Positions 369 to 24,370 of a DNA stretch of 24,897 bases are shown here, piece by piece. Position 1 is the stretch's first letter, and each line of letters starts with the position of its first letter. The notes beneath the pieces were generated by a model. It searched no databases and had not been told where the DNA came from. It saw nothing but the letters and a program-made list of their open reading frames with translations. The translations under genes and the position numbers were made by a program. Source of the stretch: a virus; IMG/VR virus record IMGVR_UViG_3300032288_001144, positions 1-24,897 of that record; one strand, written 5' to 3'.

Positions 369-3300
369 ATGGGTGTCATTCAGGTTCCGGGCCGCATCAG
401 CGGGAAGACCTACAGCGTCAAGATCAAGGGCGATACCCCTTCTGAGTCCGAACAGGCGCGCATCCGTGCATATCTGGACGAGCAAGAAGGCGCGTTTGTA
501 CAGGACTTTTCCCAGCGCTTCGGCTTTGCTCCCCCGACCCCTGATGATGGCACCGCCATCGGGCGTGGTTTTGAGCGTGGTAAGGCCGGTGCGAAGTCTG
601 TGCTTGGCACCACGGTCGAGACTATTGGCCAGCAGGTGGGGCTGCCCAGCATTGCCGAATACGGTCGGGGTATGGAGGAAGCGGCGGCGCAGCGCCAGTT
701 TAAACTGAGCCTGTTGCAGCCCGCACCGACAACCCGCCAAGATGTAGCGGCTGCCGAAGGTTTCTTCCCGACGATTGGCGCAGGGCTCAGCTATGCAGGT
801 GAGATCGCAGGTGAACAGATTCCGCAACTTGGCGTTGGTCTCGCGGGCGGTGCGGCTGGTGCTGTCGCTGGCGGTCTGACCGCTGGCCCCGGTGGGGCTC
901 TGGTTGGTTTCGGTGTGGGCTCCGGTCTTGTTGAAGCACCGATGCTGTTCGGTGCCAACGTGCAGCGCCAAGAGGAAGAAGTGGCAGCTGGCCGCAAAGA
1001 GGCTGTGGACCTCACAGACGCACTGGGTGCCACGGTCGGACAGTCGGCGCTCACTGCTGTAACTAACGCCCTCGCAGGGGCGGGGGTCTTCTTGCGCCCC
1101 GGTGCCAAGCTCTTTACGCGAGTGACGTCCGGTGCCGCTGTTGGTGGTACGACCGAGAGCTTGAACGAAATCGGCCAGCAGATGCTGGAGCGTCAGCAGG
1201 CAGGCCTGCCTGTCGATAGCGAAGACGCCATCCAAGAATACATCGACGCTGGTGTGGCTGGTGGCGTGCTCGGATTGGGTGCCGGTGGTATCGGAGGTAT
1301 TGCTGGACCTCGCGTAGCGGAAGCTGGGCCGGGCGAAGCCCCGCCGCCCGCGCAGGGCGAAGCACCACCAGAGGCTCCGCCGGAAGCGCCGCAGATCGCG
1401 GCTCTCACTGTTTCCGAAGAAGAGGTCACTGAGCGCACGGTCGATGCGCGGGGTATCTACGATGAACGCCTTGCTGTTGCGTTGGACAGCGGTGCGAGCG
1501 AGCCAGAGGCCGAGCAGCTCGCAGCAAGAGCTGCGCTGAACTACATCTCAGAGCTGCCGGAGCCTGTCCAAGCCCAGCTCGGTGCCTTCAAGAGCACCAT
1601 GGAGACGCAGGCTACCGCCTCGGTGCCCGGTGCAATGCCGCCCGATCTGCCGGACTCGGCGTATGCCTCGGAGTTTGGTGCTACAACGCAGAAAGAACTG
1701 TTTGAGGCTCCTCCGGCCCCGGCGGTAGCGCCGCAGCCCACGGTAGAACTGCCGGAACCTGAGAGTGAGGCCGACGCCTTCGAGCGTGCTGCGGCGCAGT
1801 ATGCCCCGACGCGCACTGCTGTTCCAATGGCGAAAGGCCCCGAGCCGAAGCCTGAGCAAGTCCTGACGGATGATCTGGTAACGCAGTTGGGTGTCGGGTC
1901 GGCCAAGTCGGCGTCGTTGCGTAAGCTGGTCGGCAAACCCGTGCAGGACGCGAAAGTCATCAAGGCGCTGGACAGCTGGGCCCAGAACCCCAAGACAAAG
2001 CCCGAGCAGAAGGCGCTCGCCACGTCTCTCATTACCGGCCAGCCCGTGCAGGGGGATTTGTTTGCCGAGCCGAAGGTTCCAGATGTCCCGAAAGCCGCGG
2101 TCACCCCCGCCGCCGAGCCGGAGGTCGTCACGGAACAGATTGCCCAAGAGGAAGTCGCCCCTGCGCCGGAGGTCTCCGATGTCACCCAGATTGCAGAAGC
2201 TAAGCCAGAAGAAGTGGGAGCTGGCGTTCCGAGTGGTGGACAAGGCGTGGAAGGACTCGGACAGCCCGCTGGCGACGCTCAGCCCGCCCAAGAGCCTACA
2301 GCACCTGCAGGCGGAGGACTGGGAGGAGATTTGTCGGTGCCTATGGGTGCTGATACAGCAGCGGGAGCAGAGCAGCCTGCACTGACCCCCACCCCTCTCG
2401 GCCCGCCGCCGAGCCTGACGCGCCCTGTTGTTCCTCTATACCGCATGGGGCCGGGCATCCGCCCGACTCCGCCGCTTCCTAAAACCAATGCCGACGCCGA
2501 GTTGGATAAGGTTCTGGCCGACCGCTATGCGGCGGTCACTCCGCCGAATGTGAAGCGCGGTGCAACATTCCTGAACGAGCCCGAGAACAAGGCGCGCGTT
2601 GCGGACAAACTGACAGCAAACGACAAGCGCCTCGTGGTGAGCCTTCTCGCTACGCGCGACGCGGGCATGTCTCCGCAGGGGGCCGCAGCCAAGCTCTACT
2701 TTTCTAAGGTTGAGCGTCCTATGGATGCCATCCTCATGGTGGTCGATGACCTGACGGCCCCATACGGCAAGTACCGTGCAGAGCCGGGCACGCCGGATTA
2801 CCAACGTGAGTTTATGCAGGGGACCGGCAGTGTAGCCGCCAAACAAGCCTTGGAGTTCATCCGGGCCCGGATGTCCCCTGCGGTGCAGAACGAACTCGAC
2901 TTCCGCATCTCTCTGAGCGAGCAGCAGAACAAGAACCAAAAGACGTGGATCGCTGACCTCGACCATGTGGCGTTGAAACGGAAGGCCCGCCTCGAAGCTA
3001 AAGCCGCGGAGACTGAGGCGGCGAAAGAGTCCGGCTATATCGTCGAGGACATGTCCACTGATCCGCTGGCTGCACTGGACCGTGAGCTGCATTACTCGGT
3101 CAAGATGGCGTTGGACGGTGGAAATCTCCGGCTGGCATTGCGGGCGCTCTCGGCGACGACAAATAACAAGGAGCTCGCCAAGCTCGCAGCTCGCTTTGCC
3201 GATATGGCCGGGACTACGAGGGTCAAGGTCCTCTACCCCGGAGATTCCGCCGAACACATCGGCATGGCGCGCGGAAGGTATTGGGGTGCAGGCAAGAACG

Positions 3301-6300
3301 CTCCCGATGAGCGCCGCAACTTTATCTATCTGAACGGGCAGACCGGCATGGACGCCCATGTGCTTATGCACGAGATGGCGCACGCTGTTACTGTAGAGCT
3401 CGCCTACACGATGCCTAACCACCCGGTCGTCAAGCAGCTCGAGACACTCCTGAAAGATTTGCAGTCCCGCATCGGGCGCGACGCTTTTGGAAACTACGCC
3501 GACGAGTTCTATGGGCTCAAGAACCTGCCTGAGTTTTTGGCGGAAGTCTTCGGTCGCGTTGCTTTCGGCGAGAGCGACAACGGCTTGCGCGACCTCATGG
3601 AGCGCACGACCTATCTGACCGAGACCGAAGTGCAGCGCGAAGTACCGCTGAACTTCCTGCAAAAAGCTACAGAGATCATCACCAACCTGATGCGTTCCCT
3701 CGTCGGCCTGCCGTCCAAGCCATACCCGCGAAAGACAAAGACGGATATTGCTTACAGCAAAGAGACCGCAATGGATCAGTTCCAGCGGCTCGTCGAGGGC
3801 ATGCTCTCAACCGCACCCGATGTGCTGCCCGCAGAGGTGTTCAAGCGGGCAAGACTAAGCCCGCGCGTCGCGGAAGCCACGATCAACAACGCCCTGCAGA
3901 GCGCTGATCCGTGGAGCCCTGCGGGTCGAAACAAACTCGCCGACCAGATGAAGGCATCCACTCCGATGCCGGTGCGTCGCGCGCTGCTCGGCCTTCTGCA
4001 CCTTGACTGGTTCAACGATCTCGCCGGGAAGTACTTCCCCCAGATCGCAGAACTCAAAGCGCTGGACGACCTCCGTCGCGGCGAGATTGTTGCGATGGAA
4101 GAACGCGCCAAGGGCGTGATGGAAGACATGCTGGCCTATGCCAACAAGCAGCCAGAGATGTACTCCAAGCTCATGTCGATCATGGGCCGCGCCACGCTGG
4201 AAGAAGTCGATCCGACGCAACCGCTGTCCAAATACATCATGGACAAGGACAAGACCCGCGTCTGGCACGAGCTGAACAACGAGCTGCGCAATTCGGACTC
4301 CACCGGAGAAATGCGGAACCTGTTCAAGACGGTGCGCAACATGTTTGCGCAGTTCCGCGAGGACATCAAAGCTGTGCTGTCAGAGCGCGTGAAGGAGATG
4401 ACCGACGACAAGGCCACTCAGAACCAGCTGATCGCACGGTTGATGCAGAAGCTCGACGAAGAGAAGGCCATCGACCCCTACTTCACCTTGATGCGGAAAG
4501 GCGACTTCTGGCTGACCTACACCGCGGAGGACACCACGGCACCGGCTGTCGTTGACCCGAACACGGGCGTATCACGCAAGCCACCGACTCAGTTCGTGCA
4601 GGCGTTCAACACGGTGTGGGAACGAGACCAGTTCCGCAGAAAGCTTGAGGCAACCGTGGATGCCAACGGCCAGCCCGTCGCGAGCAACTTCGAGGAGCTT
4701 CCGCGACCGACGGGATACAACCCCGACAGACCCGTACCGACCGAGTTCGCACAGGGCGCTATCAACATCATCGGCAGCTTGGTTTCGGGCTCAGCTGACC
4801 CGGACTCAAAAGCGCGAGCAGAGGCCGCTATTGCCGCCGTCCAAGATATGTTCGTGCGGTTCACCCCCGAACACTCGATCATGCAGTCCTTCAACAAGCG
4901 TAAAGGCACGCGGGGCTTCATGGGGGATATCACCCCGCTCGGCGTAGTTGATCGTCCGACGGACATGGTGCAGGCACTGGCTGAAAAGACTTCGTCGCTG
5001 GCCTACCAGCTGGCGAACATCAAGTACGGGGCCAAAATCCAAGCCCTGAAAAATACCTCACGGACGACGCTCGACAACCTGAAAAGGTCGCAGGACCTGA
5101 CCGCAGGTGAAAAGCAGGCGGTTATTGCCTACCATGACGAGTTCATGGACCGTGCTACGTTTGCACAGAGCCCACGGGTTAGCGGAACAGCGCAGGTTGC
5201 TCGTGGCGTTACCTTCGGCATGACCCTCGGGTTCAGCGTCGCCGCTGCGCTCAACAACCTGATGCAGATTCCCATGGTCGGGACCACCGAACTTGGCGGG
5301 CGTTACGGCATGGGGGCGTCTATTCGTGAACTTGGGTCGGCAGGGCGACTGCTGATGAACGCAGGCAAGACCAAGCGGGTTCGCTCCTTCGGGCCGGATG
5401 GCATGGTGCTGCGGGATTCCTCCAGCGTTGACGACTTCGGTTCTGTGGCCAACTACTTCGAGGTCAACGATAACGGGGAGTACGTTCTCCGGTCTGACAA
5501 GCCCATCCCGAAAGCCCTGCGCAACAAACTTTCGAACTTGGACGTTCTGGTTGAAACGCTCTCTGCCAACGGCATGCTGACCAACTCAATGGCGCAGGAA
5601 ATGCTCGATGCAGAGTCGGGGTTCCTGCAAAGGATCAACCAGTGGTCGGGCTTCCTGATGCACCAAGCTGAACGGTTCAACCGTCAGACCATGGCCGTCG
5701 CCGCCTACAATCTCGAGCTGGGTAAAATCACTGGGCCTGTTAGCCGAGAGGCCAAGATCGCCGCTGCCAAGAAGGCCATCGAGATCACTGAACGCATCAA
5801 CGGCAGCATCGGTGCCTCCACCGCACCGCGCTTCGCTCAGAGCGCTGTCGGCTCTGTGGTGTTCATGTTCAAGCGGTTCGGTCTGCACATGGCCCGGTAC
5901 ATCATCGGCACCGCCAATCAGGCCCTACGCGGAGCAACAAAGGAAGACCGCGCAGTCGCGCGCTACCAGATCATCGGTATGCTCGGCACGACCGCCCTGT
6001 TCGCTGGTGTGCAAGGTCTGCCGTTCTTCGGGGAACTGATGGCGGTGTTCAACCTCTTGTTCACCGACGACGATGAGGAACCGGCAGAGGTCGTTATCGA
6101 GAAGTTCCTGCAGGAGCCGTTCTACCACGGGGCCTTGAACTATCTCACTGGTGCCGAAATCGCCTCGCGCATCTCGATGAGCGGGCTCATCTTCCGCGAA
6201 AACAAGATCGAGAAGGACCAGAGCGTTCTGTACGATCTGTTTGAGATGCTCGGGGGCCCGGCAGTCGGTGTCTTCATGAACACCGAACGTGGTATCGAGC

Positions 6301-6809
6301 TGTTGTCGCAAGGGGAGCTGTATCGCGGCGTGGAAGCCATGATGCCGTCGGTCATCAAGAGTGGGATGAAGGCAACTCGCTTTGCCACAGAAGGCGCGAC
6401 CACTCTCCGCGGCGACGAGGTCATCCCTGTGTCCAACTTGGACATCGCCCTGCAGATGATCGGCTACACCCCCGGTGCGTATGCACGGGAGCAGGAGCGC
6501 GTGTCTGGGGCGAAGAAGATCGACGAGGCTGTTCGGTCGAAGAAGCGTCAGCTGCTTCGCAAGTACAATCTTGCGTTCCGTGAGGGCGATTTTGCTGAGG
6601 TGCGCGAGGTTCTCAAAGAGATGCGAGAGTTCAGCCGCAAGTACCCAGAGGATGCCATCTCTGGCGAGACCCTCACCCGGTCGCAGCGCGGCTTCCAGCA
6701 GCGGTCGCAGGAAATGATCGGCGGTGCATCGTTCAGCCCAACTGGGCGGGGTCGCGCAGAGCAGTACATAAGCGAGTTCGACGAGGACACGTCTCTCTGG
6801 GCCGGATAA
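369..6809 (+). CDS. Giant internal virion-type protein with metallopeptidase-like motif and PLxRFG-type C-terminal region
   Basis: The 2146-residue protein starts at an ATG with SD AGAGGAG 7 nt upstream (355-361). Visible order: a short N-terminal module (about 1-60); hydrophobic glycine-rich segments that could insert in membranes (about 135-195, 220-245, 292-315); a low-complexity Pro/Ala/Glu linker (about 318-700); a zincin-like site HEMAH at 1001-1005 followed by EFLAEVFG (Glu1055/Glu1059 as candidate third ligand); a long helical region; and MFKRFG at 1833-1838 followed by hydrophobic segments. The last resembles the PLxRFG-type region of very large phage proteins. Such proteins are known or proposed to be packaged inside the capsid and ejected with the DNA, with peptidase activity possibly acting on the cell envelope. 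That role is inference here. It is the last rightward gene and converges with the early block. High confidence that it is one intact gene; moderate for function. Confidence 0.85.
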   Translation: MGVIQVPGRISGKTYSVKIKGDTPSESEQARIRAYLDEQEGAFVQDFSQRFGFAPPTPDDGTAIGRGFERGKAGAKSVLGTTVETIGQQVGLPSIAEYGRGMEEAAAQRQFKLSLLQPAPTTRQDVAAAEGFFPTIGAGLSYAGEIAGEQIPQLGVGLAGGAAGAVAGGLTAGPGGALVGFGVGSGLVEAPMLFGANVQRQEEEVAAGRKEAVDLTDALGATVGQSALTAVTNALAGAGVFLRPGAKLFTRVTSGAAVGGTTESLNEIGQQMLERQQAGLPVDSEDAIQEYIDAGVAGGVLGLGAGGIGGIAGPRVAEAGPGEAPPPAQGEAPPEAPPEAPQIAALTVSEEEVTERTVDARGIYDERLAVALDSGASEPEAEQLAARAALNYISELPEPVQAQLGAFKSTMETQATASVPGAMPPDLPDSAYASEFGATTQKELFEAPPAPAVAPQPTVELPEPESEADAFERAAAQYAPTRTAVPMAKGPEPKPEQVLTDDLVTQLGVGSAKSASLRKLVGKPVQDAKVIKALDSWAQNPKTKPEQKALATSLITGQPVQGDLFAEPKVPDVPKAAVTPAAEPEVVTEQIAQEEVAPAPEVSDVTQIAEAKPEEVGAGVPSGGQGVEGLGQPAGDAQPAQEPTAPAGGGLGGDLSVPMGADTAAGAEQPALTPTPLGPPPSLTRPVVPLYRMGPGIRPTPPLPKTNADAELDKVLADRYAAVTPPNVKRGATFLNEPENKARVADKLTANDKRLVVSLLATRDAGMSPQGAAAKLYFSKVERPMDAILMVVDDLTAPYGKYRAEPGTPDYQREFMQGTGSVAAKQALEFIRARMSPAVQNELDFRISLSEQQNKNQKTWIADLDHVALKRKARLEAKAAETEAAKESGYIVEDMSTDPLAALDRELHYSVKMALDGGNLRLALRALSATTNNKELAKLAARFADMAGTTRVKVLYPGDSAEHIGMARGRYWGAGKNAPDERRNFIYLNGQTGMDAHVLMHEMAHAVTVELAYTMPNHPVVKQLETLLKDLQSRIGRDAFGNYADEFYGLKNLPEFLAEVFGRVAFGESDNGLRDLMERTTYLTETEVQREVPLNFLQKATEIITNLMRSLVGLPSKPYPRKTKTDIAYSKETAMDQFQRLVEGMLSTAPDVLPAEVFKRARLSPRVAEATINNALQSADPWSPAGRNKLADQMKASTPMPVRRALLGLLHLDWFNDLAGKYFPQIAELKALDDLRRGEIVAMEERAKGVMEDMLAYANKQPEMYSKLMSIMGRATLEEVDPTQPLSKYIMDKDKTRVWHELNNELRNSDSTGEMRNLFKTVRNMFAQFREDIKAVLSERVKEMTDDKATQNQLIARLMQKLDEEKAIDPYFTLMRKGDFWLTYTAEDTTAPAVVDPNTGVSRKPPTQFVQAFNTVWERDQFRRKLEATVDANGQPVASNFEELPRPTGYNPDRPVPTEFAQGAINIIGSLVSGSADPDSKARAEAAIAAVQDMFVRFTPEHSIMQSFNKRKGTRGFMGDITPLGVVDRPTDMVQALAEKTSSLAYQLANIKYGAKIQALKNTSRTTLDNLKRSQDLTAGEKQAVIAYHDEFMDRATFAQSPRVSGTAQVARGVTFGMTLGFSVAAALNNLMQIPMVGTTELGGRYGMGASIRELGSAGRLLMNAGKTKRVRSFGPDGMVLRDSSSVDDFGSVANYFEVNDNGEYVLRSDKPIPKALRNKLSNLDVLVETLSANGMLTNSMAQEMLDAESGFLQRINQWSGFLMHQAERFNRQTMAVAAYNLELGKITGPVSREAKIAAAKKAIEITERINGSIGASTAPRFAQSAVGSVVFMFKRFGLHMARYIIGTANQALRGATKEDRAVARYQIIGMLGTTALFAGVQGLPFFGELMAVFNLLFTDDDEEPAEVVIEKFLQEPFYHGALNYLTGAEIASRISMSGLIFRENKIEKDQSVLYDLFEMLGGPAVGVFMNTERGIELLSQGELYRGVEAMMPSVIKSGMKATRFATEGATTLRGDEVIPVSNLDIALQMIGYTPGAYAREQERVSGAKKIDEAVRSKKRQLLRKYNLAFREGDFAEVREVLKEMREFSRKYPEDAISGETLTRSQRGFQQRSQEMIGGASFSPTGRGRAEQYISEFDEDTSLWAG

Positions 6810-7113: not shown

Positions 7114-9952
7114 TCGGATCGTTTAGCACAATCGGCACCTCAATGACATCGGCTACGGGCATCTGCAGCTTGGTGCCTTTGGTCAGACGCACTTTGGTCT
7201 TCTTGGCCTGATACTTGGTCTTGAGCTCGGCGATGACCGAGTTGTAGTTGACCTGCTGCTCAGCCAGCCATGCCTTGAACGGTGTCGGCAGGAGGTAGAG
7301 GATGTTCAGGTCGGTCTCGTAGCGGCCCACAATGTCGGCGGTGCGAGGCTGTTGATCCGGCACAACCAGCTCGTCGATGCCGTTGACGTAGTCCTTGCTG
7401 CGGCGGTCGAGCGTCGATTTGATCTGCAGGATGCGGCCCAAGTTCTGGTAGGTGTAGGCAGTCACGAGGTCCATCGGGTCGAGGGACATATCAGCGCTGG
7501 CAGCCTTGTTCCCCTTGAGGATGTTCTTGAGGATGTAGCTGCGCAGGGTAGGCACGTCATAGTCGAGCAGCTGGAGGTGCTTACAGATCACAGCCGCTGC
7601 AAGAGCGGTGGCCGCTGCCGCTGACCAGAAACGGTTCTCAGGCCCGAGGTCCGCAGCGGTGTCGATCTGGCGCTGCAGCGTCTCAACGAGGAGCCGCGTC
7701 TCCGACAGGTTCGACATGACGTACTGGATGAAGATGATCCCGGCATGCCCGTAGTTGTTCTGGATTTGGTTGCTGAACGCATCGGTCAGGCGCTTGTCGG
7801 CCTTCTCGGTGAACAGCCTGCTCGTCTCGATCTCAAGAACCCTCTGCGCCTCAGCTTTCGGCATTGCCTTGGCCATCGCCACCTTGTCGATCAGGCTGCA
7901 GTTGGCTGACGAGATGAACAGCAGGTTCCACGGCTCTCCGCGGTAGCGCTCGGTGTTGCCGTTCGAGGACATCCGATTGCGCTGTTGACCGCCCGTGATC
8001 TGGTAAATAAGTTCTGAGGCGTCCTGCGGTCGGATGTTGGTGATCTCGTCCATGCAAACCGGCAGGCTGTGCATCACATCGGCGCGGTTCATCTTGGAGT
8101 TATGGGTGTCGTCCTGCTTGAGCAGCAGCTTGCGCGGATCGCCCCACGGGGACAGGGCTGCATACTGGGCGTGGGTCTTACCGAAGCCCGAGTCCTTAGA
8201 CCACAGGTGCAGGAGCGACGCGTTGATGGGGAGAAACTTCATCAGCACTGAGCCGAAACCGACGCAGGTGATGAACTGGTGCAGCTCGAACCCCGGCTTG
8301 TTGTAGAAGTTGACGGCGTCCCGCCAGCCGTCCAGCGTGCCCTTGGGCTCGAAGAAGTCAATCATACCGCGCGTTGCCGCCGACGGTGCGTTGAACTCGA
8401 CGTGGTCGGCATGGATGACCTGTCCGCCGAGAACGAAGCCCTTGAAGTCTGGTAGCCAGCCGAACTGGCGGTGTGCATTGTCAGCCTGCGTGGTGATCTG
8501 CAGGTCTTTAACCATGCTTTGTGTAAAGCTCATGATCGCATCCACTTCCCTGTTGATTGCCATAACGCCATACGTGGCGAGAACCTTGCGAAATTCGTCT
8601 TTCGACGTGACCACGTAGAGGGGGACCACAAAGGAGCGCACCCCGTCCATCGGTAGATGGTGACGCATCTCGATGACTTCACCCTGCTCGGGGTCTGTCA
8701 AGCGCCGCACAACGTAGAGATCGTTGTGCCAGACCACGCGTTCAATGACGTCTCCGTCGTCATCAGTGGCCCGGATGAAAACACCGCCGCTCTTTCCCCG
8801 GAAATAGGGGCTAGGGTACGAGGGTATCTCGTAGGTCTTCGGCGGTGCATCGGGCTGCTCGGGGTCAGCGACCTCGACGATGTTGTCCTCCGGCTCGGCT
8901 TCCTTGAACTGCTGGCCAAGCACGATGGGGGACTTGATCTTGTTCAGGTGCGGGCAGCCTGCGCAGCCACCCGGGTTGTATTCGTCGAACCGCCCACAGA
9001 GGTATGGCCCCGCGATGCGGTCAGCCTTCTTCATGGCGTCGTGCTCGTCGTAGTCGGGGTGGCCCTCAGAGACAGCACGCACAGCCCTCGGCGCATCGCT
9101 GCAGTGCTTGGCGATAGACAGCGCCGCCCGCCACATGGGTTCTTCCAGAGAGGCCCGGTTCTCTACGCAGAACGCCAGCTGGGCGCAGCCCTTGCCAGCG
9201 ATAGTCTTCTGCATAATCATTTTGAACGAGGCTTCGCGCTTCCCGATCAGGGCGTTCATCATCGCGCTGTTGGTCACTGCCGGGGTATACTTGCGCGCCG
9301 GTGCTACAAAACCCGAACCGCCTTCGACAGACGCCAGCAGGCTTGCAAAGTCAAAGAACTGCACGGGCTCGGGCTCAGATACCCCGAAGAATGATACGGC
9401 CTTGGGGTCGTCTCCTTTGTAGTTGTGCGTCCCCGGAACTCGCAGAACGCGGGCGGCGTCGGCGGTGACGTTCTCGTCGGCCTTGAACCCCTGTGCCTTG
9501 GCCAGCGCCTTGAGCTTCTCTGCCACCGGGAGCCACGTCATTAGGTCAACGGGCTGTGAGAGCGGCCAGTAGACGTGCACCCCGTACCCGGAGTTTACGA
9601 GAAACGGCTTCGGCAGCTTGTTTGTTTTGACGAAGCTCTTGAGCGCCACGATGGCAGCCGCTTGATCTGGGAAGTCCTTTGCCTTGCCCGTGCGGAGGTT
9701 AACCCCGCAGTCGAGGTCCATGTAGAACGCCCGCATCTGCTTGACGTTCTCGGCCTCACGTGAACCCGCTTCCTCGAAAGTGCCGAGGGCATAGTAGGCA
9801 TCGAAGCCGTTTTCGTCGAAGTTGTTCGCAGCCTGCTCAAGCTGCTCAATTGTGTCGTAGAACTTCTGAATGCGTCGGCCTTCGCCGAGAGCTAGAACGC
9901 AGTAGGAGCCCGCAGTGCCAAGGACGGCCTGCAAAAACGTCGATGTATTCAT
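7094..9952 (-). CDS. Primase-helicase: archaeo-eukaryotic-type primase fused to DUF927-like helicase
   Basis: A two-part replication protein of 952 residues from the ATG at 9952 (a GTG at 9961 would add three residues; the ATG has an AGAG element at better spacing). The N-terminal part carries AEP primase motifs: FYMDLDCG with metal-binding D79 and D81, SGYGVHVYW (121-129, catalytic His126) and RVLRVPGTHNYK. A Cys/His cluster follows (C319, C330, C333, H335), probably zinc-binding. The C-terminal part resembles DUF927 helicases: GW near 498, Walker A KDSGFGKT (586-593) and Walker B CMDEI (D635, E636). Expected role: primer synthesis and unwinding at the phage replication fork, with the family A polymerase encoded upstream in the same operon. 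It follows a 79-nt gap containing a stable inverted repeat, so it may be separately regulated. Domain assignment is by motif only. Confidence 0.9.
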   Translation of the reverse strand: MNTSTFLQAVLGTAGSYCVLALGEGRRIQKFYDTIEQLEQAANNFDENGFDAYYALGTFEEAGSREAENVKQMRAFYMDLDCGVNLRTGKAKDFPDQAAAIVALKSFVKTNKLPKPFLVNSGYGVHVYWPLSQPVDLMTWLPVAEKLKALAKAQGFKADENVTADAARVLRVPGTHNYKGDDPKAVSFFGVSEPEPVQFFDFASLLASVEGGSGFVAPARKYTPAVTNSAMMNALIGKREASFKMIMQKTIAGKGCAQLAFCVENRASLEEPMWRAALSIAKHCSDAPRAVRAVSEGHPDYDEHDAMKKADRIAGPYLCGRFDEYNPGGCAGCPHLNKIKSPIVLGQQFKEAEPEDNIVEVADPEQPDAPPKTYEIPSYPSPYFRGKSGGVFIRATDDDGDVIERVVWHNDLYVVRRLTDPEQGEVIEMRHHLPMDGVRSFVVPLYVVTSKDEFRKVLATYGVMAINREVDAIMSFTQSMVKDLQITTQADNAHRQFGWLPDFKGFVLGGQVIHADHVEFNAPSAATRGMIDFFEPKGTLDGWRDAVNFYNKPGFELHQFITCVGFGSVLMKFLPINASLLHLWSKDSGFGKTHAQYAALSPWGDPRKLLLKQDDTHNSKMNRADVMHSLPVCMDEITNIRPQDASELIYQITGGQQRNRMSSNGNTERYRGEPWNLLFISSANCSLIDKVAMAKAMPKAEAQRVLEIETSRLFTEKADKRLTDAFSNQIQNNYGHAGIIFIQYVMSNLSETRLLVETLQRQIDTAADLGPENRFWSAAAATALAAAVICKHLQLLDYDVPTLRSYILKNILKGNKAASADMSLDPMDLVTAYTYQNLGRILQIKSTLDRRSKDYVNGIDELVVPDQQPRTADIVGRYETDLNILYLLPTPFKAWLAEQQVNYNSVIAELKTKYQAKKTKVRLTKGTKLQMPVADVIEVPIVLNDPNGEQDK

Positions 9953-20661: not shown

Positions 20662-20876
20662 TTCCGCCCCCGTTCCCACGCCATGCGCGACAGTCGGTTG
20701 GCCAGTGCGTCGATGTCCTCGACGCTGATCTGACGGTTGGTGATGATGGCCCAGTAGACCAAGTCCATGAACCGCTTAGGTGGCAGCACGGATGCTGCGT
20801 TGCTGATCCCCAGTGCCGCCTCGGAGTAGATGTCACGGTTCGGCATGGGCTCGGCGCGTTTAGCTTTCCAGAACAT
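20658..20876 (-). CDS. Small hypothetical helical protein
   Basis: 72 residues, starting MFWKAKRAEPMPNRDIYSEA, then helical (NAASVLPPKRFMDLVYWAII; VEDIDALANRLSRMAWERG). A shorter form from the Met at codon 11 is possible. The frame overlaps the VRR-NUC gene by 17 nt and is ATGA-coupled to the next gene. No domain is recognised; weak SD (AGGG). Confidence 0.55.
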   Translation of the reverse strand: MFWKAKRAEPMPNRDIYSEAALGISNAASVLPPKRFMDLVYWAIITNRQISVEDIDALANRLSRMAWERGRK

Positions 20877-21159
20877 TTTCGATCATCCCTTTCAATTCAT
20901 TCACGTTGGTTTCGTCGATGACGAGAGCGATGCCGCCCTGCGCCGCGATATTGTCTAGGTTCATCTTCTGCAGTGCCGTCGGCTTGTTGCCATTGGCCTT
21001 GCACTCGATGCCGATGAACCGCCCCCTGAGACAGGCGACGATGTCAGGAACACCCGATGCACCGTAGCCGCCCGTCACTGGGTAGAAGTAGTAGGCACCC
21101 AGCGTTTTCAGCTGGGCGACCACCTTGGCTTTGACCTTCTTCTCCGGGGTGTCGGCCAT
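20860..21159 (-). CDS. VRR-NUC domain nuclease
   Basis: 99 residues, the whole length of a stand-alone VRR-NUC domain. Visible motifs: GGYGASGVPDIVACLRGRF with the catalytic PD, then IGIECKA (the ExK of the PD-(D/E)XK fold), then KPTALQKMNLDNIAAQGGIA, the conserved 'T-x-x-Q ... I-x-x-x-GG' helix of this family. Such single-domain phage enzymes are structure-selective nucleases, in some cases acting on Holliday junctions or flaps. Likely a DNA-repair, recombination or genome-processing nuclease. The stop/start junction with the upstream gene is TGATG (1-nt overlap). Confident on family; substrate unknown. Confidence 0.88.
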   Translation of the reverse strand: MADTPEKKVKAKVVAQLKTLGAYYFYPVTGGYGASGVPDIVACLRGRFIGIECKANGNKPTALQKMNLDNIAAQGGIALVIDETNVNELKGMIENVLES

Positions 21160-21563: not shown

Positions 21564-21962
21564 TCATGCTCCCTTGATGACCCAGAACACATCGTCGTCG
21601 ATACGCATGCCGACCCCCTCGACCTTTGTCTGTGGGGGATCAACTTTCATCATTGACAGAACAGCCAGCTTCTCCTGCATCCACGCAGGTAATTGCGAAC
21701 TGTCAGAATAGGTGCCTTCTGCTTCACTGTCAACACTATCAATGCCAAGGCATACAACCTCGACCTGTTTAGTGGTAGGCGTTATCATAACACGATAAAC
21801 ATTCTCAAAGTCTGCGGTCCACTGGGCACGCATCTCCTTGGTCCGGGCCGACTTTGTCAGCACATCCGCGATAGCACGAAAGTGTTTGGGCACTCCCGCT
21901 GCAGCCAGATCATGTTCCGTGATCCTCTGCAGGTCCACCATACGCTTCATTCTGTTCTTCAT
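21564..21962 (-). CDS. Hypothetical protein sharing a C-terminal domain with its neighbour
   Basis: 132 residues. The N-terminal 45 residues are helical and basic. The last 40 residues (from LPAWMQEKLAVLSMM to VEGVGMRIDDDVFWVI) closely resemble the last 40 of the 292-residue protein encoded directly upstream (LPDWMRGRIAVLQM ... VDGVGLRMDDKVYYI). The conserved core is LP-x-WM-x(4)-AVL-x-M followed by V-(E/D)-GVG-x-R-x-DD-x-V-(F/Y). The middle part (FENVYRVMITPTTKQVEVVC) is beta-like. It has no catalytic motif I know. The shared domain suggests an intragenic duplication or a common partner. Start ATGA-coupled to the 292-residue gene; SD GAGGAC. Confidence 0.65.
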   Translation of the reverse strand: MKNRMKRMVDLQRITEHDLAAAGVPKHFRAIADVLTKSARTKEMRAQWTADFENVYRVMITPTTKQVEVVCLGIDSVDSEAEGTYSDSSQLPAWMQEKLAVLSMMKVDPPQTKVEGVGMRIDDDVFWVIKGA

Positions 21963-22837
21963 CCGTTGTCCTCCATGATGTAATAGACCTTGTCGTCCAT
22001 GCGCAGGCCGACACCATCGACGTAAGTATCCGGCTCGGTCATCTGCAGCACAGCGATCCTCCCCCGCATCCAGTCGGGCAGGGCGGTTGCGTCCATGCCG
22101 ACCACATCACTGACCTTCATGGGGTCCACAAACTCGATCCCTGCGGCGTGTGCCACCAGCTGCCCGTAGTTATCGGAGAACCCGACGAAGTGTGTCTTGC
22201 CCTTGGCTGCCATGGCCTCTCTCCAGTTATCGACAGCCTCAAACATGTTTGCCATAGTGGCCCGCACGGTCGGGTCGATGAACGTCATGTGGCGCACCTC
22301 TTTCCAGAAGGCGTTGTCGAACGACTGCCCGTAGCCAGTCTCCCCACTAAAATCACGCAGCAATCGGCGTGCGGTATCGTGGTGCTTGCTTGCCGATCCC
22401 TCGATCAGACGCTTGGCCCGCCCCGCCGTCCACTCTAGGCTTCTGCGCGGTGTGATCGGAATGAGGTGGTCCTTGGCCAGTTTCACCGCGCCCCGCAGGG
22501 ACTTTGTGGTCACGATGTTGTACTGCCACGCGCTGTGCTTATACTTGTCGTTCACGATCCCTTTGGTCCGCACGTAGAACTGGGGCTTGCTCTCCCCTGA
22601 ACCTCGCACACGCACATCACTGTAGCCGATCTCGCCGAGCACGTGGATGTCGCCCTCCCGGTAGACTAGGGCGTGCGAACTCCCGTCCATGTGCAACTTA
22701 ACATCGAGGGTGCGCTCGACCTCGTTCATGAAAGAGCCAAAGGGCCCGAGGTGGCGGTAGTAGTCCGCGTAGCTTTTGTGCCGCGCCAAGCGGCTCCCGC
22801 TCGTAACCGACGATACAAGTTCATGTGTGAATGTCAT
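21959..22837 (-). CDS. Hypothetical phage protein with LPxWM...GVGxRxDD C-terminal domain
   Basis: 292 residues, no recognised enzyme motif. N-terminal region: HKSYADYYRHLGPFGSFMNE, then HALVYREGDIHVLGEIGYSD and KPQFYVRTKGIVNDKYK, a mixed alpha/beta domain. The middle is helical and basic (LIPITPRRSLEWTAGRAKRL). C-terminal part: FVGFSDNYGQLVAHAAGIEF, then the domain from LPDWM (253-257) to DDKVYYI shared with the next gene. The ATG has SD GGAGAAAT and lies one base after the stop of the 356-residue gene. The length and order next to another large unknown suggest a two- or three-gene accessory module, possibly acting against the host. Role unknown. Confidence 0.65.
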   Translation of the reverse strand: MTFTHELVSSVTSGSRLARHKSYADYYRHLGPFGSFMNEVERTLDVKLHMDGSSHALVYREGDIHVLGEIGYSDVRVRGSGESKPQFYVRTKGIVNDKYKHSAWQYNIVTTKSLRGAVKLAKDHLIPITPRRSLEWTAGRAKRLIEGSASKHHDTARRLLRDFSGETGYGQSFDNAFWKEVRHMTFIDPTVRATMANMFEAVDNWREAMAAKGKTHFVGFSDNYGQLVAHAAGIEFVDPMKVSDVVGMDATALPDWMRGRIAVLQMTEPDTYVDGVGLRMDDKVYYIMEDNG

Positions 22838-22838
22838 T

Positions 22839-23909
22839 TTATTTCTCCATCTTCACTTTGGTGGCAAAGCCAGCCGTTTCATTGATCCATCTGTTGAAGC
22901 ATGCGCGGATGTGCTTACCCAGTGCCTTCACGTCGTCCTTGTCGCCGTTGTATGAACGCTCTGCGTCGTGCATATCCAGCATGGCTGCGACACCTAAGCC
23001 GTAACGCATCACATGCTCAGGGTCTTTCAGGATGGCACGCACGAGCGCCTTCTCAGTGTTCATGAACAGGATAGCGTGGCTCTTGCTGTAGCCCTTGATC
23101 TTGTGATCCGCAGCGATCTGATCGAGCTGCTTGTTCATCTCCATCCGAAAGTTCCAGTTCATCTGGTCGCGCATCATGGGATACATGGTCTGCGCCCACT
23201 CGTAGAGTGCCTCGATGTGCGGTTTGAACTCGCGCTTCTCGTCCTTGTTCACACGCGTGCGGTCCACCATGACCTTGTGAGGCTCGCCGACGAGGGTAAA
23301 CTTACCATCAGCCTCGCGCTTGAACGTCACGCTGAGCCCATCATCCCCGGTCTGGAACGCGCGGTGACGCTCGGTATACCACAAGGATGCTTTCTTCGCG
23401 GCCTGCTGCTTGTGATACTCGAAGATGTGGCGCGGCACGGTGCGGGTCTTGGGCAGGTGCAGTGTCTGTCCGGCTGCGCGGTTGTAGATATACTGCAGCC
23501 CCTCACGGGTCTGGCGGAACCAGAGTTCACGGGGCAGCGCACGGGCAATGAAAGAGTAGGTCTGGTTGTGCTGCCACTCGCCCGGCCCGTTGCGCACGGT
23601 GATCGTCTCGGTGCCATCCTTGTGCTTGCGCCACACGATGGGAGAGCACAGCGCGATGTCCTTGGGGGTCAGGGGATGCGCCTTGAGCGGTTCTCTGTAG
23701 CCCCAGTTGAATACCGGGTCGGCGTAGCCGCCGCAGGACAGGGCGTAGCAGTGGTCATTGACCTTGATGATCCGCTCCCACTTGCGGGCACGCTTGCCAA
23801 TTGGACGAATGTCCTCCTCGAGGGTGTGCTGCTTGCTCTTGAGCACGGGGGTCTTGGCATACCTTGCGGCGACCTCGTCGAAGCTGTTCAGTCTGTTGAT
23901 GTAAGTCAT
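22839..23909 (-). CDS. Large hypothetical phage protein
   Basis: 356 residues, strongly basic and aromatic, with no transmembrane segment. Notable segments: KWERIIKVNDHCYALSCGGY, then NWGYREPLKAHPLTPKDIAL, TETITVRNGPGEWQHNQTYS, ELWFRQTREGLQYIYNRAAG, and a helical C-terminal region (HIEALYEWAQTMYPMMRDQM; CFNRWINETAGF). I recognise no family; the gene looks intact and well conserved in codon use. Palindrome copy 5 lies exactly 15 nt upstream of its ATG, and its SD (GAGGATC) is between them, so expression of this gene may be controlled there, as proposed for the SNF2 helicase gene. Confidence 0.65.
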   Translation of the reverse strand: MTYINRLNSFDEVAARYAKTPVLKSKQHTLEEDIRPIGKRARKWERIIKVNDHCYALSCGGYADPVFNWGYREPLKAHPLTPKDIALCSPIVWRKHKDGTETITVRNGPGEWQHNQTYSFIARALPRELWFRQTREGLQYIYNRAAGQTLHLPKTRTVPRHIFEYHKQQAAKKASLWYTERHRAFQTGDDGLSVTFKREADGKFTLVGEPHKVMVDRTRVNKDEKREFKPHIEALYEWAQTMYPMMRDQMNWNFRMEMNKQLDQIAADHKIKGYSKSHAILFMNTEKALVRAILKDPEHVMRYGLGVAAMLDMHDAERSYNGDKDDVKALGKHIRACFNRWINETAGFATKVKMEK

Positions 23910-23947: not shown

Positions 23948-24370
23948 TTAGAAGTCTGTATTGATCTCACGGGTTAGGGACATGCGGTCCCAGAGTTGAT
24001 CCATGAGGCCCATGTCGCTGTAGTCGGAGTCCGACTCGATGTCTTGATCTTCCTCCCCAATGCGGACGAAGCGATAGGCAAATGGGAACAACGGCAGATT
24101 GCCCTCTCCCCGCCCACGCTCATCGTCAAACGATTTTACCAGTGCGGACATGTGCTGGAGCCCCTGCACGTCCTCGTAACTGTCATACCATTTCACACAA
24201 TCGGCGGAATAAGTGAGGAACACTGAGCCCTCGTGCTCGTGGATCGTCCACGCCGTCTCCAGACCGTTCTTCTGCACTCGTGGGTCCATACGATAGATCG
24301 CCATCACCTCGTCGATCTGCTCCTTGCTGGCGAAGGCAAAGGCGATCACCACGTCACTCCTGTATCCCAT
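23948..24370 (-). CDS. MGYRSDV-type phage protein of unknown function
   Basis: 140 residues beginning MGYRSDVVIAFAFASKEQID. The 'MGYRS-(D/E)-V' start followed by an alpha/beta domain is, as I recall, a recurrent signature of uncharacterised phage proteins. Further on: TAWTIHEHEGSVFLTYSADC, then VKWYDSYEDVQGLQHMSALV, FAYRFVRIGEEDQDIESDSD and a strongly acidic C-terminal region. The alternating alpha/beta pattern and acidity could fit a DNA-mimic or host-takeover protein, but that is speculation. The ATG has a strong SD (AAGGAG). It sits 38 nt upstream of the 356-residue gene, with palindrome copy 5 between them. Confidence 0.7.
   Translation of the reverse strand: MGYRSDVVIAFAFASKEQIDEVMAIYRMDPRVQKNGLETAWTIHEHEGSVFLTYSADCVKWYDSYEDVQGLQHMSALVKSFDDERGRGEGNLPLFPFAYRFVRIGEEDQDIESDSDYSDMGLMDQLWDRMSLTREINTDF

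Follow-up and report, generated by a model that had tools for sequence, protein, structure and literature searches.

A C-terminal domain shared by two overlapping genes, LONG and SHORT, of an uncultured tailed phage

Why would a phage encode similar C-termini in two neighbouring genes? The question arises in the window, 24,897 bases from an uncultured tailed phage, whose minus strand encodes a PolA-type DNA polymerase, an SNF2-type helicase, a RecB-type exonuclease and a primase-helicase, among others. Early in this minus-strand gene row sit LONG (21959..22837, 292 amino acids), which passes from a basic N-terminal alpha/beta domain through a helical middle to an acidic C-terminal domain, and SHORT (21564..21962, 132 amino acids), with the shared C-terminal domain behind two N-terminal helices. 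Both ORFs lie on the minus strand where an earlier note on this DNA had placed them, and the peptides it quoted are exact. The stop codon of LONG and the start codon of SHORT meet in a 4-base ATGA overlap (21959..21962, minus strand), which makes translational coupling of the two genes probable. The same or a similar overlap occurs in the related contigs L001, L018 to L022, L039, L042 and L043.

The shared C-terminal domain

The earlier note described a C-terminal block common to proteins whose N-terminal parts differ, and both halves of that description are borne out at the sequence level. BLASTP, hhalign and HMM searches delimit a block of about 42 residues, placed at residues 253-289 of LONG (LPDWMRGRIAVLQM...VDGVGLRMDDKVYYIM; 21971..22081, minus strand) and at residues 91-130 of SHORT (LPAWMQEKLAVLSM...VEGVGMRIDDDVFWVIK; 21573..21692, minus strand). 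Direct BLASTP of LONG against SHORT gave E = 2e-11, hhalign of profiles built from the relatives of each gave P = 8e-16 and, in a second run, 5.7e-18 over 42 columns, and HMMs built from the copies of one protein only matched the other (E = 3.6e-14 from LONG to SHORT, 5.6e-12 from SHORT to LONG). By these comparisons the similarity is far beyond chance, even counting all gene pairs in the window. With the block cut out, hhalign detected no significant similarity between the two proteins (P = 0.22 and 0.048). It also ruled out the LONG N-terminal domain as a further copy of the C-terminal domain (P = 0.29) and the neighbouring 356-residue protein F4 as a third paralogue (P = 0.15-0.16). Chance likeness, or convergence on a short amphipathic motif, would be in keeping with sequence homology limited to about 42 columns, but is extremely improbable given P values of 8e-16 to 5.7e-18, the identical predicted topology of the two ends and retention of the block in nearly all relatives.

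We modelled LONG and SHORT independently with AlphaFold2, using 23 and 26 natural relatives as input, respectively (mean pLDDT 89.2 for LONG and 86.9 for SHORT). At the C-terminus of both models, three strands are followed by a helix and then by two or three more strands, in the same order; the unrelated folds that would have refuted the earlier note's proposal were thus not what prediction gave. The predicted C-terminal domain of LONG (residues 214-292; 21962..22198, minus strand) comprises strands 215-223, 226-235 and 246-249, helix 255-265, and strands 271-273, 277-279 and 284-288, with pLDDT of about 88-96 except in the last residues; that of SHORT (residues 53-132; 21567..21806, minus strand) comprises strands 55-60, 67-71 and 83-85, helix 93-103, and strands 118-120 and 125-129. 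Compared by element order and residue offset, matching elements lie 157-163 residues apart in numbering, so the common fold probably starts near residue 214 of LONG and residue 53 of SHORT, about 35-40 residues before the block. As modelled, SHORT consists of little more than the C-terminal domain and the two helices that precede it.

PDB fold searches returned no significant match for either model. PAS/GAF/Cache-type entries scored weakly for both (Tlp3 and PDE6 GAF, Z 3-5), at a level on which we base no fold assignment. The N-terminal alpha/beta domain of LONG (residues 31-127; 22457..22747, minus strand) weakly resembles DUF1801 (2oc6; Z 5.0, rmsd 4.8, 103 aligned) and the DUF419/MmcQ-YjbR double-wing fold (3h9x; Foldseek prob 0.84, E 0.26; by VIA, Z 4.6, rmsd 4.3, 94 aligned), although matches with Z under 8 do not distinguish real kinship, neither family matches in sequence, and the scores are too weak for membership. 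Within this domain Y59, N96 and K98 are near-invariant among relatives, as is the motif N-x-K-Y; the domain is basic in 22 of 23 LONG relatives, and the C-terminal domain is acidic in all 23. In BFVD, the LONG model matched four proteins from uncultured Caudovirales phages (A0A6J7X9R3, A0A6J5RNX1, A0A6J5RE98 and A0A6J5QFS9), none of which has a name or a function; the predicted fold of the first fits most of LONG's length (E 4.2e-19, TM 0.78).

Neither protein has a significant family match in Pfam, PHROGs, NCBIfam, PADLOC or the PDB. Searches by tblastn of 50,697 phage records with LONG and SHORT from several lineages and with the 40-residue block gave nothing credible, and no cultured phage, and a scan of 84,980 bacterial and archaeal genomes with one narrow pattern detected, at that sensitivity, no relative and thus no prophage. 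Weak matches of the block to the LKO4 'pyrophosphatase' and Gordonia phage Stormageddon gp119, and of LONG/SHORT relatives to Pectobacterium POP17, Pseudomonas SEW_P16, MT835484 and Kolga, were set down to chance, the LONG and SHORT HMMs missing those loci. The last 30 positions of DUF7423 (PF24198) align with the block of the relative L055, but at 14 bits, below the Pfam gathering cut-off of 27, and this family matched neither the window nor 10 other contigs. On this evidence from sequence, LONG and SHORT are a real, uncharacterised protein family that is absent from the searched libraries.

Relatives, neighbourhood and rate of change

Relatives gathered from IMG/VR with LONG, SHORT and block alignments comprise about 20 further viral contigs carrying both a long and a short member of the family, some with LONG proteins only about 20-25% identical. 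By block HMM, nearly every positive contig encodes one long (275-400 amino acids) and one short (81-158 amino acids) protein, each with the block at its C-terminus, from genes that usually lie side by side, in many cases with an overlap of ATGA or a few bases. Exceptions in spacing are L055, with one small ORF between the pair, L041, with four, and L057, with about 1.7 kb. L056 is the only contig of the set in which the block HMM found LONG (3263-4114) and no recognisable SHORT; there, VRR-NUC directly follows LONG. In a tree of the C-terminal domains, whose root is unknown and many of whose branches are long, a single branch (97/96) divides the 19 SHORT from the 18 LONG copies without exception, a split that fits one old duplication with both copies kept since. 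The earlier note's proposal of a duplicated module stands in this part, on significant homology, shared predicted topology and the single branch; block similarity between separate profiles, C-terminal topology and tree split each came out as for a paralogous family. Near-universal retention of the two genes together agrees with a putative joint function.

The conserved gene order runs from a DUF3150-like gene through a MoxR-type AAA+ gene (phrog_1297), a DUF2201 metallopeptidase-vWA gene (PF13203) and, optionally, F6 and F4 to LONG, SHORT, VRR-NUC and, further on, PolA. Linkage of the pair to the AAA+ and DUF2201 genes upstream held in all 14 contigs that reach far enough; the window and three other contigs stop short of that region and lie outside this count. 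Pseudomonas phage Rollin has neither the AAA/DUF2201 genes nor the LONG/SHORT pair, and Rhizobium phage RHph_TM3_14A has the former without the latter. Rhizobium phage EVB41_056 was suggested by its position as a diverged LONG, a candidate that was not supported. In the window, F4 (22839..23909, minus strand, 356 amino acids) is a conserved neighbour unrelated to the block (hhalign P 0.15); it matches nothing in the databases, lies ahead of LONG in most relatives and is missing from L042, L052, L053 and L056. The conserved neighbour downstream is a VRR-NUC/Hjc-like nuclease of 99 amino acids (20860..21159, minus strand). On the plus strand, positions 369-6809 encode a 2146-residue protein with a match to DarB-like antirestriction/internal virion families (phrog_10089, E 2e-50) in its C-terminal 360 residues.

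In comparisons of L019 with distant contigs, identity is 23-26% for LONG, against 55-60% for DUF2201, 63-67% for PolA and 52-68% for VRR-NUC. Measured in this way, LONG evolves faster than any other gene of the cluster, with a C-terminal block that the block HMM still recognises in distant contigs. The window LONG is 41-43% identical to those of L001 and L003, whereas the flanking F4 and SHORT are 81-90% identical (SHORT 86-90%), and DNA identity is about 30-70% over LONG residues 1 to about 250, recovering at the block. Positions 22078-22797 thus hold a distant LONG allele between genes 81-90% identical to those of near relatives, and replacement of the gene by recombination is likely. Between L001 and L018, LONG is 79% identical but SHORT only 57%, indicating that LONG and SHORT recombine independently. 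We dropped the block as a recombination junction, since its DNA is 78-83% identical even to L018, where the remainder is not, and protein-level conservation explains this. F6, a 140-residue protein of no assigned function (window 23948-24370), is 48-57% identical to near relatives whose F4 is 81-83% identical, and by that measure is a second fast-changing gene, like LONG.

Possible roles of the pair

Phage early-gene module duplications are in themselves ordinary, so what is new in LONG and SHORT is an undescribed family and its arrangement, not the kind of system. So far the pair, which an uncultured phage clade conserves as a two-gene unit, draws interest mainly because its neighbour is a predicted viral machine for protein remodelling. 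Where two coupled proteins both retain a module and one of them otherwise changes fast, the best interpretation is a docking domain that serves a partner common to both. We tentatively favour, at clearly less than even confidence, an explanation in which the early-region proteins LONG and SHORT share a duplicated docking module, LONG acting as an adaptor and SHORT as its minimal version, with the MoxR/vWA machine as the most plausible partner. The module, about 42-80 residues long (three strands, a helix, three strands), probably descends from one old duplication, in proteins that are probably translated together as a rule. The neighbouring MoxR/vWA-peptidase machine is the best candidate partner by position only; LONG may use its basic N-terminal domain, which evolves fast, to bring this machine a target that is bound to nucleic acid or comes from the host, and SHORT may occupy a second docking site or regulate LONG.

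This docking explanation draws on the LONG/SHORT homology and common predicted topology, the presence of long and short genes with overlapping start and stop in nearly all contigs, the 97/96 branch, the upstream AAA+/DUF2201 genes in 14 of 14 contigs, the contrast between LONG at 23-26% identity, its block still recognisable, and its more conserved neighbours, and the basic (22/23) and acidic (23/23) domains of LONG. In jumbo phages, a MoxR/metallopeptidase-vWA pair has been proposed as a chaperone and cochaperone for virion assembly (PMC7824862); genes of this kind, and of the N4 gp24/gp25 AAA/vWFA type (PMC2784036), lie directly upstream of LONG and SHORT, which are themselves not part of either described pair. 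However, the MoxR/vWA linkage may reflect no more than synteny inside a single phage clade (PolA 57% or more), and RHph_TM3_14A carries MoxR and DUF2201 without the pair, indicating that such a machine does not in general require it. L056, with LONG and no recognisable SHORT, and the independent recombination of the two genes also count against docking. If the docking idea is true, LONG and SHORT would be the first candidate adaptors for a widespread, functionally open phage MoxR/vWA-peptidase pair. We consider it doubtful that the domain is, more specifically, a new docking module feeding clients to the MoxR AAA+/vWA-metallopeptidase machine that the phage itself encodes, where LONG would be an adaptor that diversifies rapidly and SHORT a regulator reduced to the bare domain.

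Almost as likely as docking, and likewise short of even, is that the shared module mediates homo- or hetero-oligomerisation, LONG and SHORT forming one mixed assembly, for example a ring or dimer, with SHORT controlling how many LONG subunits enter and no outside partner involved. Adjacent, translationally coupled paralogues that are retained together would suit such an assembly, as would an acidic C-terminal domain joined to a basic N-terminal one, but a window LONG of about 41-43% identity beside a SHORT of 86-90% leaves no evident co-adapted interfaces outside the block, and independent recombination speaks against a finely matched heteromeric interface there. LONG could instead be a nucleic-acid-binding host-takeover or transcription protein, its N-terminal domain double-wing or frataxin-like and SHORT a competing truncated regulator; the basic charge, the near-invariant N-x-K-Y, the weak resemblance to DUF1801 (2oc6) and DUF419/YjbR (3h9x) and the proposal that MmcQ/YjbR binds DNA (PMC7641849) lean this way, yet with structural matches below the level of real kinship (Z under 8) and no Pfam or PDB profile match we judge it rather unlikely. 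A toxin-antitoxin-like or defence/counter-defence pair, suggested by two small overlapping genes of which one evolves fast, is less probable still: PADLOC matches neither window protein, a homologous domain in both is untypical of a toxin and its antitoxin, and the genes occupy a replication/early-region position with conserved synteny.

Two database labels in this neighbourhood deserve mention. The DUF2201 metallopeptidase-vWA proteins (L019 3149-4435) fall in phrog_1314, labelled 'HNH endonuclease', which conflicts with their Pfam match. The 172-residue protein at window positions 17505-18023 matches phrog_474 ('phosphofructokinase'), a name that may mislead, since in L019 a protein at a comparable position (8223-8750) has a Pfam match to the dATP/dGTP diphosphohydrolase N-terminal domain.
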